A stretch of 64,000 nt of DNA from Adineta ricciae (taxonomy: Eukaryota; Rotifera; Eurotatoria; Adinetida; Adinetidae), in assembly GCA_905250025.1 (NCBI GenBank), contig CAJNOJ010000022.1:665268-729267 (forward strand), written 5' to 3'. The notes beneath the pieces were generated by a model. That model saw nothing but the letters and a program-made list of their open reading frames with translations, did no database searches and had not been told where the DNA came from. Positions 2,401 through 64,000 of this stretch are shown piece after piece; position 1 is the stretch's first letter; every line of letters starts with the position of its first letter. A program made the position numbers and the translations under genes.

Positions 2401-3833
2401 ATGATCATTTCTCGAGACGATGACTGGTTGCTATAAGAAAATTTTGTTTTTTTTCTGTCTCATTGTATCAGATTGTTTGTTTCCAGAAAAATCTCGAATT
2501 TTCAATCCGATATAGCTCTACTATCCAGTAATAATAAAGATGACCTATGTGTATGAAATCTGTTGTGACTGCCACAAATCAAATCACACATTGATGGAAA
2601 TTTCTACTGCCACAAGGCGACGAATTTACATTCGACATTCATCAGTCGCGTTTTAAAGACAAAATATTGATGTAATTAGATACATTTGCATGATATTCGA
2701 TAATTTAATAACACGAATTCTGTGTCAAAAATGACGATGTTATCTTTGTGGATGTTTACCAACATTTATCAAAGTAACTAGACATGTTCTTGTCTGTCAT
2801 TTATCACAATTCAACTTGTTGCTTTCTTCAGTAAACGTCTGGTACTTGATAGAAACCCATCATCATCATCACTATCAAGGTTATCACTAATAGCCATTTA
2901 TTTTAGAATTAAGTCAATAAAAACAATTGGATAACTTGCCATTAACAGATAATAGTTGCTATCTATCAAGATATAACATATTAGTCAAGCTGCAATAAAC
3001 ACTTCGCACGAGAGTATAAAATAAACACAATGAGAATACCGACATGACAATGTTAAAAGATATCAAGTTGGATTGATAATTATGAATATGCGTCTTCGAA
3101 ATATTTCGAAGATAATATTCAACTTATATAATTCATGCACAAAGGGTCTACCAATCCCTATACGAAATAGATAATGAGTTTCTTTCTCTCTTTGTATTGT
3201 GATTATCAAGTGTATTATGATGTAATCGAAGCAAATGAATACTAAGTATGATGATGATTATGCAAATAGTCATTCATATTCAAAAAAAAGAATGAGAACC
3301 TACTATCATCAATTGTCGTACGTGTTGATAGTAGTTCAATATCCTATATAATCTCATCGATATGTCTACGAGATTAATGTTGAACAAATCTGATTAGACA
3401 AGAAACAGAAGAAGAAAATGCATAGATTATTTGACAGTCTATTCAAGTCAAGTGATCTATCTGATCAAATCATTTCTATACATATATAAAGTGTGCAAAT
3501 TTGTTCCATGCTTGGTATTTATTAGAATATGACGAGTACGAGAATTTTCTTCATACAGAAATAGAAGAATAAAAGCAAGAGATTATATTGCAGAGCTATT
3601 TCATGAGAAGAAGAATAAGAAGAAAAGAATGAGAACAGGTAGACAAACGTACAATGAGTAGTGAGATATAGGATTCAAATAACAGCCACAGGACAAAAAA
3701 AAACAAACAAACAGTGTTGTGATATTCACCGGTGATGGCTGTTCGTAATAAATGAATTTGTTATGAGATAATTAAAACAAATAAGCAAACAAACAGAACA
3801 CTAGTCTACATAGGTTTATGAGAATTTTAATGT
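2401..3833. other. Intergenic, GDH to four-pass protein
   Basis: About 1.4 kb without a supported gene. AATAAA-type hexamers near 2532, 2932 and 2994 could serve the GDH transcript. The rest is AT-rich with purine-rich patches (3540-3660), and I see no conserved coding frame. Confidence 0.6.
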
Positions 3834-5559: not shown

Positions 5560-6886
5560 CGCAGACTGAGAAGAAATATAAGCGAGAAAGAGCGTGATCA
5601 TAAAATTCTTTATTCGTACGATGAAAGACGGAAATCTGATGATGATGAATTGATGAAAAAATATCGAATGATTGAAAAAATATCTTTTCAACGTGTGCTA
5701 ATATCATAATTCTTCTTCGAATGTCAGTCGAAGGAATACATAATAATGAAAACTGAATGCCTTTTGATGATAAATATGATAACATGAAAAACAAACTATA
5801 CATACATATACACAGACAGATAGACACAGATAGAAGAAGCGATCGTGAGTAGTCAGCTGCAAAAGCACTGAAAAGAATGAATGAGTGATGAAAGAAAGAA
5901 AAAAAAGAAAGAGAGCCACAGAGAAGGAGAGCAAGAGAGAAAGAAGAAAAGAATCAGATAAAGACACTAATCGAAACTATGTGAATAAGAATTGACATAT
6001 ACGATAGTGATGATACTGTTATCATAACGTTCCAAATAGTAAATATCTTTTTTCCCGCCTCGAGGAAGAGATTATTAGATTAATTCTAATTACATGCAGC
6101 GCATGTTCAACACTGATTTCAAGGGAAATCGCGAAGAAAATTCTACCTTTTTAGTAATTCAACAGACATTGATCGGATCGAATTTTGATAAATTGTTGAT
6201 ACAAAAGTCAAAGTTTCTGATTATCATCAGTACAAGATTAATGCTAACCTTGATCATGCCACACTAGACATCAAGTAATTCAATGATCAATAGCACGATA
6301 ATGAGAATAACCGACACGACAGCAATGCAAGGAACATACTATGATATATTCTTCAATTGTATATATAAATACACATTTAATCAAAGAAGAAAGGTTGAAT
6401 AGAAGCAAAGAAAGAAATCTATTTCTATTTATTTAAATAATCCTTGATGGAAATCAAAGTATGTAGTTATTAGTTAAAAGATTTCTCAAGTTCAATTTTC
6501 ACTCTGCCCTTAAGATCAAAAGAATATTTGAATACACATCGGCCAAACTTTAATGAATTGCAATCTCATGGAAACAGGATACTTTTAACCTTGAAATCAA
6601 TGCGAATCTATTTTTATTTCGAGCAAATCAATACCACTTTGGTGACATGAGTAATTTTCGCTATTGAATAATAGTGTATTGTTTTATCGTTTCGAAGAAG
6701 TCATTATCAATTGTTTGTGTTTGTTAGCTAGCGCCGTCTGTTGATTTCATTATCGGTTTGGACAGACGAACACCTCTAATATTTCAAGGAAGAGAAAAAA
6801 AAAGAAGAAGAGAAGGAGTAAAAGACAATCGGTCATTCATCGTTCTTTTTTATTTACGTTTGTCAATCAAGTTAATTTTGGAAGAA

Positions 6887-7265
6887 ATGACGGATACGCG
6901 AACCCTTTCATCGTCATCTTCCTCGACAACAAACCATGTAAATGGAACAAATTCGACACCGTCACTACCTTCTGATTTAAATAATGTCAATGGTTTAACC
7001 ACTTATGTAAACACTGGCAAATTTGTTAAATTTTACTCAACATGCTTTTTTTCTAATTAAGGTGAATACGATCTTCCATCAAATGGAAGAAAAATTTCTA
7101 GCTGCAAGCGATCAAGTTATGAATCGTATGAACGAATTAGGCCGCAAGATTGATACGTTAGAAACGAGTCTTGGTGATATTATATCTCATTTACCAGCAG
7201 AAGAGTCAGCAACATCAAACCCATCGCCAAGCGCTATCCCAGTACAACAACAAACCAAATCATGA
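6887..7265 (+). CDS. HSBP1: Heat shock factor-binding protein 1 (HSBP1)
   Basis: HSBP1 is a small coiled-coil protein that binds the trimerisation domain of HSF1 and dampens the heat-shock response. Exons 6887-7006 and 7062-7265 flank a 55-bp intron (GTAAAC...TTAAG) and give 107 aa. Exon 2 carries the family core: FHQMEEKFLAASDQV followed by MNRMNELGRKIDTLE, a heptad pattern matching the QMQDKF...SDQIIGRIDDM core of animal HSBP1. The protein is longer than the usual 75-80 aa because of a Ser/Thr/Asn-rich N-terminal extension of about 40 residues. AATAAA at 7361 fits its 3' end. Confidence 0.9.
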
Positions 7266-57892: not shown

Positions 57893-58476
57893 TTAACTAA
57901 GAAATTTTGTGTGTTTGCCCGTTGCTAACAATTCATTATTTTGTTTGTTGCGAAATTCTACGGAAAGAAATGCCAACGTTCGACCCAACTTCACCGTTTC
58001 GGCATCGATCACCAGTGTTTCACCCTTTTTTGCTGCTTTAAGAAAACTTGAGAAAAATCATTCGATGATTTATCAATTCGTTATCGACTTACGAAACACT
58101 CAGTTCAACCGATGCCGATTTCGACGGTTTTCTTTCGTTGGTTTCAAGTGCTAATGTCGATACACTGTCTGTCAATGATGTCAGCATTCCGCCGTGCAAA
58201 GTATCTTGGAAAGAAGAGAATTTGATTGCAGTGAACATATGAGTTATGGTAGAATTTACCATTTCGATTTAAATGTTTTTCATCGATATCAAGTTCACAT
58301 TGAATATGGCCTGGCTTTCGAGATGCCACGACTCGAATCTGAGATTAGAAAAAAAATGAGTGGTGAAGGATGAACTCTCAGCTTACTCCATCAAATATTC
58401 GATTGAATTTTTCAGTTTTCGGTCCCAATGTTATGAGATCTTGTAAAGTACGAAGAAGATTTCTACTTGCATTCAT
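57893..58476 (-). CDS. ACOT13: Acyl-CoA thioesterase 13 (ACOT13/THEM2), hotdog fold
   Basis: Hydrolyses medium- and long-chain acyl-CoAs to free fatty acid and CoA, mainly at mitochondria. Exons 58476-58387, 58338-58260, 58204-58093 and 58046-57893 give 144 aa (human 140). DTLHGGMLTSLTDSVSTLAL carries the HGG motif and the catalytic Asp of this hotdog clade. GRTLAFLSVEF and the C-terminal TGKHTKFLS match family signatures. The ATG abuts an acceptor-like CATCTTCTAG, and the gene starts 144 bp after the PDSS1 stop on the same strand, as for a downstream cistron. Confidence 0.93.
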
Positions 58477-58620: not shown

Positions 58621-60939
58621 CTAATGTCGACGTTTCAAAGTCGACTGTGTGAGATGGGTCAGTAAGTTTAAGAATACATTCGATTCATTGGACGATTGTG
58701 GAAAACTACTAAGTATTCGGCATGCTTCATTTGCATACTGCTCTGCAAGGTGAAATGTTCGAGCTTTTCCATCGCTCTAAATAAATTCCAATGAACAGTC
58801 TAAATTGTCTCTTTGTTTTAATGAGATTTTACCTGATCGATTAGCTCTAACGCTCGTTCGATATCACCAGACTCAGAAAAACGTCTTAGTATAAGATTTT
58901 GCAATTCTGGGAACTAGAACACGAAAAATTCAAGTCATTATTCAACGCATTCGATTCATTTCGAACCTGTTGACTAGCAAAAAGTACAGGCGCGGTAGAC
59001 AAACCCAATTTCAAATCTGCTGTCGCCGGTTTTCCCAAATCAGCATCGGTGGACGTTACATCCAAAAGATCGTCAATTAATTGAAACGCCATGCCAAAAT
59101 TTTTACCAAATTCATAAGCCAGATCTGCACATTGATTAGCATCAACATTGGAAATATTTCCTAACAGTGCTACCTAAAGTAAATCGTTCTTTCTTACGAA
59201 AATCAACGCAAATGCATTCGAAGACATACCGCTTTACACGTGTTGGCAAATAGACTAGCAGTTTTACAAAATGTCTTGTTTAAGTAATCTTGAAATTGTT
59301 CAGCATCACTCTCCTTGGTCGATAGCTGCATGAATTCTCCTGAAACATGCGATCAATCATGAAAATATTGAAAAGATTCCTCTGCTAAAATAGAATACCT
59401 CGCACAAGATCTTGAATAACACGAGAGAGAAGTAATATAACTTCACTGTTCCCAATTTGTGCAAGCAGTACCGATGAAATACCGAGAATGTAATCACCTG
59501 CTAGTACAGCCTAGACAATATCCATTCATCAGATGATTATCAGTGAAAATACTAAAAATTTTACTTTCTTCGGCCCCCATTTGACAGCTGCAGCTGGTTT
59601 TCCTCGTCGTCGATCACTTGAATCGACCACATCATCGTGAATTAAACTAGCAGTATGGATCATCTCACCAAGAGTTGCTACACAACGTTGATTTTCATGC
59701 AAGAAACTATAAAAGCAACAAGAAAACCATTGAACCGTTTCTGCTCACAATGATTCACTTGTCTTGCTGTTGATTACAACTTCTTGCTATTGTGCATATG
59801 ATCATCGGCCGAATGAGTTTGCCTTTCGCATCGAAATGATACTTCGCTAGGTCGTTCAATTCTTGTTCGAAACATCCCAAATGCTAAAAACAAAAGGAAA
59901 AATGACTGACAATTACTGCACATGTGACATTTGATAAATAAATAATTAAATAAATGACATGGAAAAAGAAAAGGTGCACATCTACACATATATAAAACGG
60001 CGAGATTCTCAATTAAAATTGCATCCAATTGGATTCAGAATGATTAGTTGCTTGTGCTGGTGGTGGAACTGACTTTGGAGTCGATGTGCCCGGTGGTGGT
60101 AAAATACCAGGTGTAAAATGCTCGTTGGAAGTTTTGACTGACTTTTTCGTATGCTCTTCTCCTGTCATACTACTTTTCAGATTGATTTTAATCGTCTGAC
60201 CTTGTTTAAAACTTAAATCAAGTTTAGGTTGCTGTTGTGCAGAAAGAGAATCATCATTTGTAGACTTTTCTTCTTCTTTGATCTGCTTGGCTTGTTTCAA
60301 ATATTTGAAATGATCTTGTAAAGCAACGTTGAAATCGAATGAATCTGATCGATCGCCAAACCCAATGCCTAAGAACGCCTGCTGGCCGTTTTCATTTTGT
60401 ACGCGTATGACAAAATATCGCGTAGAATCTTCAACGGTTTCTACAGCGATCGAGGGATAGCTTTCGATCGGACACGTTGCAAAATGTGCGCCTGTATTTC
60501 GGTCTTCTAATCGAATTAGACATTTGTCACCTTTGGAAATGATTTTCAAACGACAGATGAAATTCGGCGAATCTAATTTCCAATCAGCTGCACGATGTTT
60601 ACGTGTTGTTGATTGCCGCGGAGGAATGACGTAAACATTGACTTCAGGTTTGACAAGGCCTATAGATTCGTAACTTTCATCATTCGCTACACATAATGAA
60701 GCCATTCTCATAGAAAAATCTGAAAGATGAACGAAGTGTTATTGAAGAATTGTTTTACTTACTTGTAAAATATCACGATGAATTAATTGGAGATCGTCTT
60801 TGATGACGCTGATTGTTGATTGATATTTTTCATTTTTCATTTGAGCATTTGCAGCACCAACGGTTAAATACCGGCAAGAACATCGAAGTATCTTAGTTCG
60901 TGATAGAAATCGATTTGAAAGACAGCGAACTGCAAACAT
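58621..60939 (-). CDS. PDSS1: Polyprenyl diphosphate synthase subunit 1 (PDSS1/COQ1)
   Basis: Builds the isoprenoid side chain of ubiquinone in mitochondria, with PDSS2 as partner. Exons 60939-60763, 59883-59759, 59706-59565, 59510-59399, 59339-59230, 59173-58967, 58913-58833 and 58776-58621 join to 369 aa (human 415). The N-terminus is Arg/Ser-rich and looks like a transit peptide. [19 protein letters not shown], the first Asp-rich motif in [33 protein letters not shown] and the second motif FQLIDDLLD are all present. Intron 1 is 879 nt, against about 40-65 nt for the others, and contains the whole NECAP gene. TTTTCTAG ends 13 nt before the ATG, a possible trans-splice acceptor. Confidence 0.92.
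60013..60711 (-). CDS. NECAP: NECAP endocytosis-associated protein, intronless, nested in PDSS1 intron 1
   Basis: NECAPs bind the AP-2 adaptor and regulate clathrin-coated vesicle formation. A single 232-aa frame (human NECAP1 275) shows the PHear-like domain: [59 protein letters not shown] and [16 protein letters not shown] Pro-rich tail ends SNWMQF, a form of the WVxF AP-2 ear-binding motif. It has no introns, although surrounding genes are densely split. A CATCTTTCAG acceptor ends 8 nt before the ATG. No AATAAA is visible on this strand between its stop and PDSS1 exon 2. Confidence 0.94.
   Translation of the reverse strand: MRMASLCVANDESYESIGLVKPEVNVYVIPPRQSTTRKHRAADWKLDSPNFICRLKIISKGDKCLIRLEDRNTGAHFATCPIESYPSIAVETVEDSTRYFVIRVQNENGQQAFLGIGFGDRSDSFDFNVALQDHFKYLKQAKQIKEEEKSTNDDSLSAQQQPKLDLSFKQGQTIKINLKSSMTGEEHTKKSVKTSNEHFTPGILPPPGTSTPKSVPPPAQATNHSESNWMQF
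60720..60729 (-). promoter_or_regulatory. Splice acceptor (cis or spliced-leader) before NECAP
   Basis: On the minus strand CATCTTTCAG lies 8 nt upstream of the NECAP ATG. It could accept PDSS1 exon 1, whose donor is at 60762 only 43 nt away, or a spliced leader. Confidence 0.5.
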
Positions 60940-61525
60940 TAATTGTTTCGATCTAGAAAACAGAATATAAACTATTGAATTGATCTTGTCACACATGCAA
61001 CAAAATCTCTTGGCCGATCGCATGGTATGGCATCAAAGCTATTCATTCGTGCGTGCGGTTGATTTTCATCAGCTATTCGCGTGATGGTTACCGACGAAAA
61101 CCAATAACGTTCTTGAGAGAAACTTCGGGTTTACCGATAGATGGCGCTTGATTCCAATGGCGAAGGGAAAACAAATCTATTCGAGAATTCCGGTACTAAA
61201 GAGTGTAAAGGATAATCTCATTCGATTCATTACAATTCAAGAGGCCGCGGAACAATGAGTATGACTAATCAAAGAGTGTATAAAGTTTTGGTGTATCTAT
61301 TGACTTTCCGCTTGATCGATTAGGAGTGTCGTCTTCCCTTTTTCGTCTTTTTTTATGTACGTTTTACACCTACCGAAGCCTGACTTTGCTATCACGACAA
61401 AAAAAAATCAATCGTTTTCTTTCTCTTCTTTATACCCTCTAACGAAGGCCATTAAGTGAGTAATCAAGCAAGCGCTCGACAACAACAATCAACTAAAGTT
61501 TTTTTGCACTAGTCTTAACGACAAC
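60940..61525. other. Divergent promoter region, PDSS1 / myosin
   Basis: About 590 bp between head-to-head genes. TTTTGCACTAG ends at 61512, 13 nt before the myosin ATG (acceptor-like). Pyrimidine-rich tracts around 61330-61440. No other element called. Confidence 0.5.
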
Positions 61526-64000
61526 ATGTCAACAGTAAGTCGAATATTACTACCTATGTGAAGCTTAGCGGTAAATATCTATCTTTCTAGACTGCATATA
61601 TTTGGTTACCACCCGATAAACAGGGTGAGTTCGATGTGGAAATTGGTGCTCGTGTCATTGATGTCAATCAAAGTCAATTGAAAGTAGTCGATGATAATGG
61701 CAAAGTTTGTAAAATGATTTATCTATCATCTTAACTATGACGAAATTCTGTTAGGAACGAACTCTCGCCAATAATCCAGCGAATTTCAAAAAGATGCACG
61801 CTACTTCCTTTACCGATATTCCCGATATGATTCATCTAGGTGATTTGACTGAAGGAGCTATATGCCGTAACATTCTATTGCGTTACAATAAAGATAAAAT
61901 TTATGTAAGTTGATTCTTGAAATTCTCTCCAAGAGAAATGAATGTGCTCACTTCAGACGTATATTGGATCGATTTTAATCGCAGTGAATCCATATACGCA
62001 ATTGGATTTATATAATCAACAATATTTACGTTCGTATCGAAATCGAAAGTTTGGTGAATTAGAACCGCATACTTTTGCGATTGGTGACAATGCTTATCAA
62101 AATATGCTTCGTGAACGAACAGATCCGAATGCAAAAGTTAATCAATGTATTATTATCAGGTTCGTGACGAAGAAACTCACAATTGTTGTTCGATTGAAAT
62201 CTTGATTAATTTCGTTTAGTGGAGAATCAGGTGCCGGAAAAACAGAATCAACAAAACATATTCTTCAATGCTTAGCTGCTATAAGTGGAACAAAGAAGAA
62301 TTCCAGTATTGAACAACAAATTCTCGAAGCAAATCCGATTATGGAAGGTAAGACTTAAAGAAGAACGTCATTCTTTACTTTCATGATATTCTTTGATATG
62401 TAGCATTTGGAAATGCAAAGACAATTCGAAATGATAACAGTAGTCGATTTGGAAAATATATAACAGTGAATTTTGATAGTAATGGTGCAATTGCTAATGC
62501 CTATGTCGATCAATATTTATTAGAGAAGATTCGTATTGTGTCACAAGTAAATAGATTTGTTTATATTGATAGATTCTATCAAAATGTGCTTCTAGGCTAA
62601 AGAAGAACGAAATTATCATATATTCTACTGTATATTAGCTGGTTTGGGTAATGAAGAACGGAATAAGTTAAAATTAACCAAAGCAACTGATTATGCATAT
62701 TTAAACAAAGTAAATTACCGAAAGTCGGAGATGATATGGCAGATATATTGTTTTTCTAGAGCACGCCAAAATGTGATACACGTAATGATGCAGAAGAATG
62801 GAAAGCTATTCGACATGCATGCAAAGTTTTGATGTTTACCGACGATGAACTCTTCGAGATCTTACGGATTTTAGCAGTCGTATTACATCTTGGAAACATT
62901 CAATATGCTGGTAAATGTCGAATTAAAATTCTCAGGAAAATCTCTTCACGAGTAGAATACTTTTTTCATCTTTCAGCACAAAGCGCAAAAGGAATAGATA
63001 GTGTAGCCATTAAAGATCCTAAATTGGTCGAATTCATTGCGTCATTATTAGAAGTAAGGCGTACTGTACTAGCATGCTAGAAATCAACTAATGTTTTTCA
63101 TTAAGGTTGATGCAAAACGATTGTCAACTGCATTGATAACGCGAACACTTGAAGTTCACGAAGGCAAAGTTGCAAGAGCTTTGAATGCATCATCTGCTGC
63201 TGATGTTCGAGACGCATTTGTCAAAGGTTTATATGGTCAAATGTTCGAATGGTTAATCGAACGAATTAATGTAGCAATGAATAACAAAAACAATGCGAAT
63301 CGTCAAAATCCTTCGGAGGAGAAGTTTCGATCTGTCGGTGTTCTCGATATTTTCGGCTTCGAAAAATTCGAACAAAATAGGTATGTTAATGTGTCAAAAT
63401 CGATCAACTTTTCATTGATGAATATCTAGTTTCGAACAATTGTGTATCAATTATACAAATGAAGAATTGCAACAGTTTTTCGTTCATCATGTCTTTAAAC
63501 TTGAACAAGTAGGACACGAAAAGTAGCACGAATGATTCGTTGAATGAAAGATTCTAGGCTGAATACGAAAAAGAAGGTGTTAACTGGAAGAAAATCACAT
63601 TTATTGATAATCAGGATATTATTGATCTGTTAGCACGTGGTCGAATGAGTATTATCTCAATGATTGACGAAGAAATGATTGTGCCACAAGGCACCGATCA
63701 AACTCTATGTGCTAAACTTCAACAACAACATGGAAAAAATAAACATTTCATCTCTCAGTCATCACGACAAGTACAAAAATCACTTCTCTTCGGTGTGAAA
63801 CATTTTGCTGGTCCTGTTTCATACGATTGTCTTAGTGAGTGATCCATCTAACTCGTATGGTATATTCCACCATCACATCTTGACTATTTTTTAGATTTTC
63901 TTGAGAAAAATCGAGATACATTCAGTAACGATTTGAAGCATGTCTTGGCGAAAAGCAACAATCGATTGATAAAAACAATATTTCCGATCGAATCGTTGAA
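61526..64000 (+). CDS. Unconventional myosin heavy chain, motor domain (class VII-like), 5' part
   Basis: ATP-driven actin motor, cut by the window end. Exons 61526-61534, 61591-61704, 61755-61904, 61957-62159, 62220-62347, 62404-62546, 62596-62709, 62760-62910, 62977-63053, 63106-63380, 63430-63508, 63558-63834 and 63895 onward close in frame. Visible are [34 protein letters not shown], the P-loop [11 protein letters not shown], switch [16 protein letters not shown], switch [21 protein letters not shown] and [20 protein letters not shown]. The short N-terminus and VVDD segment resemble myosin VII of the MyTH4-FERM group rather than muscle myosin; the tail outside the window would decide. The first coding exon has only 9 nt (Met-Ser-Thr). 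Confidence 0.9.

Follow-up and report, generated by a model that had tools for sequence, protein, structure and literature searches.

A NECAP gene nested on the same strand within the first intron of PDSS1 in the rotifer Adineta ricciae

Introduction

At the cholinergic gene locus, VAChT (unc-17) has the same orientation as ChAT (cha-1), both products act in one pathway, and the 5' exon that the two genes share is reported as non-coding. VAChT is there a single exon within ChAT intron 1, an arrangement that PMC3053374 describes as conserved in nematode, Drosophila and mammals. A second kind of compact same-strand arrangement is the operon resolved by spliced-leader (SL) trans-splicing, known from nematodes, tunicates, flatworms and chaetognaths. 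For rotifers, a 2021 account gives operons as not reported (PMC7986045), and a 2025 account lists the group among lineages with trans-splicing and operonic transcription (PMC12460157).

In this study, we describe a locus of Adineta ricciae in which a complete NECAP gene lies within the first intron of PDSS1. The window, by which we mean the whole stretch of 64,000 nucleotides that was analysed, is the end of contig C22 in an assembly of 130 Mb and 1033 contigs. A search of the literature on rotifer operons, SLs and nested genes, outside which most subscription papers lay, found no report of the PDSS1/NECAP locus.

Results

The PDSS1 gene model has eight exons on the minus strand, running from an ATG at 60939 to a stop at 58621, and reads as 369 uninterrupted amino acids when the exons are joined. 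The layout is as follows.

60763 to 60939, minus strand: PDSS1 exon 1, 59 aa, ending HRDILQ (gene model and alignment across the junction)
59884 to 60762, minus strand: PDSS1 intron 1, 879 nt, phase 0 (gene model)
60013 to 60705, minus strand: NECAP coding sequence, intronless, 230 aa, ending WMQF (open frame, PF07933, PDB matches, ohnolog alignment)
58621 to 59883, minus strand: PDSS1 exons 2-8, separated by six introns 52-59 nt long (gene model; PF00348, 1.1e-65)

Intron 1 reads gtaagt...tttttag from 60762 to 59884, and exon 2 begins at 59883 (HLGCFEQ). The remaining six introns measure 52, 54, 59, 56, 53 and 56 nt, within the range of about 40-65 nt that an earlier, sequence-only reading had given. 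The protein matches the Pfam profile of the polyprenyl synthetase domain (PF00348, 1.1e-65), and DDVVD and DDLLD motifs can be read by eye in exons 2-8. Its best solved relatives are solanesyl diphosphate synthases, to which residues 41-350 align without a gap at the join of exons 1 and 2 (residues 59/60), so that the previously proposed phase-0 join over 879 nt is borne out by both frame and alignment. Removal of exon 1 lowers the score against 9kcy_A by 8.4 bits, from 206.8 to 198.4, and shifts the start of the match from residue 41 to residue 70 of the full protein. Exon 1 therefore appears to be part of PDSS1, on evidence that is modest but contiguous. Its N-terminus resembles a presequence, with 6 basic and 0 acidic residues among the first 33 (counted by eye), and is followed by the first conserved helix.

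NECAP is contained in a single open frame (60738-60013, minus strand), where it occupies 60711-60013 without introns. It matches PF07933 at 2.9e-56 and has 3 PDB-sequence matches in total, to human-named NECAP2 and NECAP1 entries; the profile and PDB-sequence matches of the two genes uphold their earlier identification as PDSS1 and NECAP. An in-frame ATG is present at 60711, where the start had been placed, but the likely start is the ATG two codons downstream at 60705 (ATGGCT), which is homologous to that of the ohnologous copies. A complete and constrained NECAP coding sequence thus lies wholly within one intron of an intact PDSS1, on the same strand as had been read, and the gene models with their PF07933 and PF00348 matches confirm the nesting as a layout that looks real.

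Two further NECAP loci are found in the assembly (C34:87917-88564 and C26:332746-333393), both intronless and at 80% protein identity; contigs C34 and C26 are themselves 94% identical over 19.9 kb. Between the nested gene and the C34 copy, dN is 0.059 and dS 2.07 over the PHear region, and dN is 0.129 over the whole gene, where synonymous sites are saturated. The nested NECAP is under purifying selection against its two ohnologous copies, as a functional gene would be, and for that reason we rejected a dead retrocopy. The sequence-only reading had taken the lack of introns as consistent with a retrocopy. The single open frame agrees with it as to the introns, but each of the three NECAP copies found lacks them, and on this ground a recent retrocopy was also rejected. 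On reading the flanks, no poly(A) tract or target-site duplication was noticed. Since the other two loci are intronless and the ohnologous contigs carry NECAP and a GPCR gene in collinear order, the intron loss is, as far as these copies tell, old and uninformative on whether NECAP jumped into PDSS1.

All 7 blastn matches between the window and C34 are collinear, NECAP and the GPCR gene among them. Because the position of NECAP relative to the downstream genes is common to both ohnologs, this argues that NECAP was in place before the ohnologs, and that PDSS1 was either lost from C34 and C26 or built around NECAP later. PDSS1 was located on C22 alone, the 7 other matches listed being distant prenyl synthases of 23-36% identity. 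One of these, at C53:336850-337551, is 36% identical to PDSS1 and lies in an intronless open frame of 503 aa, perhaps of foreign origin. At the ohnologous place on C34 and C26, tblastn for PDSS1 and ACOT13 remnants gave chance matches only (best E 4.3), and of 7 DNA alignments tested against dinucleotide shuffles, 6 were at chance. The remaining one, of ACOT13 with C34, scored higher than all of 60 shuffles, but in a set of 500 its score was reached by 9, and that of the comparison with C26 by 78 of 300; we treated it as chance. Given that dS is saturated, erased remnants are unsurprising. Directly upstream of the ohnologous NECAP, on the same strand, we noticed a methyltransferase-like gene, TRMT2-like by eye (L022:8522-8821 on C34, and on C26), which was found only on these two contigs; its 79-aa fragment gave no Pfam match.

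On its other side, PDSS1 is preceded by a myosin-head gene with a 90%-identical copy on C279, beside which there is no PDSS1, and PDSS1 sits between two blocks with relatives on different contigs. Comparison of 61518-64000 of the window with C279 shows quite different DNA upstream of the myosin-head copy, a structural difference right beside PDSS1. C279 also carries two near-identical open frames (NDSDWNTMVIPLKF..., phosphatase-like by eye) at 2992-3456 and 6664-7128, 3672 bp apart, a tandem duplication. An assembly artefact that wrongly joined NECAP into PDSS1 might be suspected here, as the window lies at a structural difference, the homologous contig C279 (90% over 2486 bp) lacks PDSS1 upstream of 61518, and no second PDSS1 was found. 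The split of PDSS1, however, coincides with a phase-0 intron whose sites fit the consensus, and all eight exons read through; NECAP and the downstream genes keep the C34 order in the collinear matches; and the C279 difference starts within the myosin gene or next to it, and so not in the nest. It is unlikely that a misassembly would set a complete gene so exactly within a phase-0 intron, and we regard an artefact as highly improbable on these grounds.

Splice sites were scored with a weight-matrix model that trained itself from 9 PDSS1 and ACOT13 introns (intron 1 excluded) to 169 candidate introns. The same training on reversed sequence gave 36 junctions, so that perhaps a fifth of the 169 are false, and the set is slightly circular in that 1 of the 169 junctions uses the NECAP acceptor itself. 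Its median intron length of 56 nt and the G+C content of 35.1% are close to the 55 bp and 35.6% given for Adineta ricciae in PMC5916493. According to the same source, a minority of introns form a class of far greater length, so that 879 nt is not odd in itself. Three sites lie between exon 1 and NECAP.

60757 to 60762, minus strand: main exon 1 donor, CAA/gtaagt, score 10.8, which equals or exceeds all 169 training donors
60753 to 60758, minus strand: second donor, TAA/gtaaaa, 4 nt downstream of the main donor, score 7.52 (54th percentile)
60720 to 60734, minus strand: NECAP acceptor, tcgttcatctttcag, score 9.11 (75th percentile of training acceptors)

The exon 1 donor faces two good acceptors, that of NECAP at 43 nt and that of exon 2 at 879 nt. 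Among 11,715 AGs, for which the two strands of four stretches were scored, the former ranks within the top 0.85% and the latter (8.36, 66th percentile) within the top 1.5%. The NECAP acceptor lies 14 nt before the ATG at 60705, and the acceptor-like CAG that had been noted 8 nt ahead of the ATG at 60711 indeed ends at 60720. The 43 nt between this acceptor and the main donor correspond to the 5th percentile of intron length in the training set (10 of the 169 introns are no longer than this). Splicing from the main donor to this acceptor appends IFL and a TGA to the 59 codons of exon 1, a 62-codon frame that ends within three codons, as anticipated; this TGA shares letters with the first NECAP ATG (ATGA), and 2 nt separate its end from the second.

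These sites raise the alternative that NECAP is expressed by a choice between 3' splice sites in cis, exon 1 being spliced either over 43 nt to the NECAP acceptor or over 879 nt to exon 2, and NECAP being translated by leaky scanning or reinitiation after the 62-codon frame. A top-scoring donor, a good proximal acceptor and a normal intron length are consistent with such a choice, as are the overlap of stop and start and the weak context of the PDSS1 ATG (caattaATGtt, as against agaATGgc at NECAP). The upstream frame is long and by eye contains further ATGs, so that it would nevertheless be expected to lower NECAP translation; the ATGA overlap may be due to chance, and the ohnologs have no such upstream frame. 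On balance, we consider cis choice unlikely.

With the second donor, the same acceptor would close a 39-nt intron and fuse exon 1 to NECAP in frame, giving 295 aa. From the main donor, an in-frame fusion was rejected, as all 9 acceptors that score above 3 in the NECAP stretch are off frame, leaving the second donor as the sole route. In the donor region GTAAGTAAAA, two 5' splice sites stand in tandem at a distance of 4 nt, and the region could then act as a three-way switch, the first site leading to PDSS1 or to a dicistronic exon 1-NECAP mRNA and the second to the fusion. We hold this to be very unlikely, because introns as short as 39 nt are rare (2 of 169 in the training set, one of them the second-donor/NECAP junction itself) and because agreement of frame is by itself to be expected about 1 time in 3. 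If it were true, the fusion would put the mitochondrial presequence of PDSS1 on a whole NECAP, a mitochondrion-directed endocytic adaptor, and host and nested gene, in an SL organism, would have a protein N-terminus in common as well as a precursor.

The published rotifer SL, as given in Table 1 of PMC3795323, has 0 exact matches in the assembly. A form changed only at nucleotide 1 has 41 copies, among 46 places with at most 3 mismatches, as against 0 for a reversed-pattern control, and a gtaa donor directly follows the SL in 12 of the 12 distinct copies read. SL RNA genes are thus present in the genome, in agreement with the rotifer and SL setting that had been supposed. Together with the short introns, the G+C content and the occurrence of homologous as well as ohnologous copies, they fit a bdelloid rotifer. 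Rfam gave no match within the window at the gathering threshold. The SL RNA genes often form divergent pairs, arranged head-to-head with a spacing of mostly about 153 nt (contigs C6, C8, C43, C77, C79, C99 and C146). Two further features bear on SL use at the locus.

60940 to 60952, minus strand: candidate SL acceptor of PDSS1, with 13 nt between the acceptor ctgttttctag and the PDSS1 ATG (score 9.9)
57896 to 58476, minus strand: ACOT13-like thioesterase gene, four exons (4HBT, 1.2e-15; gene model)

The ACOT13-like gene follows the PDSS1 stop by 144 nt on the same strand, and its ATG stands immediately after an acceptor (8.66); it is a candidate for an SL-processed downstream gene. Splice-quality acceptors lie 13, 14 and 0 nt ahead of the PDSS1, NECAP and ACOT13-like ATGs, and an equally good acceptor within 40 nt is found for 1.3%, 2.2% and 3.0%, respectively, of 2862 ATGs in the window. 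Since no good donor lies 38-90 nt upstream of either the PDSS1 or the ACOT13-like acceptor (the best for PDSS1 scores only 3.32), an SL-processed same-strand cluster of PDSS1, NECAP and the ACOT13-like gene is plausible.

Against SL use at NECAP in particular, its acceptor has the best possible cis donor (10.8) 43 nt upstream, with which it would bound an intron of a length normal here. In the ohnologs, the acceptor has a fair donor (CAA/gtacta, 5.7) 48 nt before it, which also weighs against SL use and because of which the NECAP acceptor may serve an ordinary 5' intron. PMC5832876 states the premise that a cis donor disfavours SL splicing; the same source reports SL addition at internal acceptors despite a cis donor in Schistosoma, with 43% of SL acceptor sites at intron/exon boundaries.

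The 3' end of NECAP was also considered.

59884 to 60012, minus strand: stretch from the NECAP stop to exon 2, 129 nt, terminating in the exon 2 acceptor

Within these 129 nt, as within 401 nt after the NECAP stop, a search for 14 poly(A)-signal hexamers found none, which speaks against a separate NECAP 3' end; both ohnologs have AATAAA 105 nt past the stop. The absence is uncommon but no proof, as all 14 are likewise missing from 122 of the 875 AT-rich stretches of 129 nt in the window. Because no hexamer was found there, NECAP messages from the nested locus may run on into the PDSS1 exons.

Discussion

We propose, with about even confidence, that NECAP is SL trans-spliced at 60720 in competition with cis splicing of a shared precursor. 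A promoter upstream of PDSS1 exon 1 would probably read both genes, in a compact same-strand cluster with the ACOT13-like gene. Splicing of exon 1 to exon 2 across 879 nt would turn the precursor into the PDSS1 message, while addition of an SL RNA as 5' partner at the acceptor, with a 3' end before exon 2, would yield NECAP mRNA, so that the two fates would compete for one precursor. A translatable NECAP mRNA would be easier to obtain in this way, because a cis-spliced exon 1-NECAP mRNA puts a 62-codon frame ahead of NECAP. The sequence-only reading had allowed two routes, alternative cis splicing or SL trans-splicing; the pair is incomplete, as the in-frame fusion and an internal promoter are additional.

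In the case of the internal promoter, NECAP would be transcribed from its own promoter, situated within PDSS1 exon 1 or a short way upstream of it, whether or not an SL is added, and the nesting would be transcriptionally independent. VAChT-specific promoters in ChAT intron 1 are named in a title in the reference list of PMC3053374. Moreover, since NECAP is kept at the equivalent place on C34 and C26 without PDSS1, its expression there is independent of PDSS1. However, only 51 nt separate the donor from the first NECAP ATG, so an internal promoter would have to overlap the PDSS1 coding sequence, and no similarity between the upstream sequence and that of the ohnologs could be detected. We consider such a promoter unlikely, and retain SL trans-splicing from a shared precursor as the preferred reading. 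The further suggestion that the locus couples ubiquinone synthesis to endocytosis finds no support here; two further NECAP loci lie outside PDSS1.

The locus is a compact natural setting in which to test how cis splicing across a long intron, splicing of a 43-nt intron and SL trans-splicing compete at one donor, in a phylum for which the 2021 account gave operons as not reported. The single PDSS1 locus found would depend on the NECAP acceptor being skipped. If the nesting is common to other bdelloids, it could be dated against the ancient tetraploidy.

Compared with ordinary same-strand nested genes, the locus is alike in holding a complete gene in a long intron, but differs in that the PDSS1 intron barely holds NECAP, and the host donor and nested acceptor by themselves delimit an intron of normal size. 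With SL-resolved operons it has in common compact same-strand genes, acceptors directly before the ATGs and SL RNA genes; unlike in those operons, one cistron is nested in an intron of the other rather than placed after it. The closest likeness in layout is to the cholinergic gene locus, in that a single-exon gene on the strand of its host lies wholly within the first intron of an enzyme gene, and the splice sites would allow a first exon and promoter common to the PDSS1 and NECAP messages. Unlike the cholinergic 5' exon, PDSS1 exon 1 encodes the N-terminus of a protein, and the PDSS1 and NECAP products have no known link. The topology therefore has a precedent in VAChT/ChAT, and the splice geometry is unusual.
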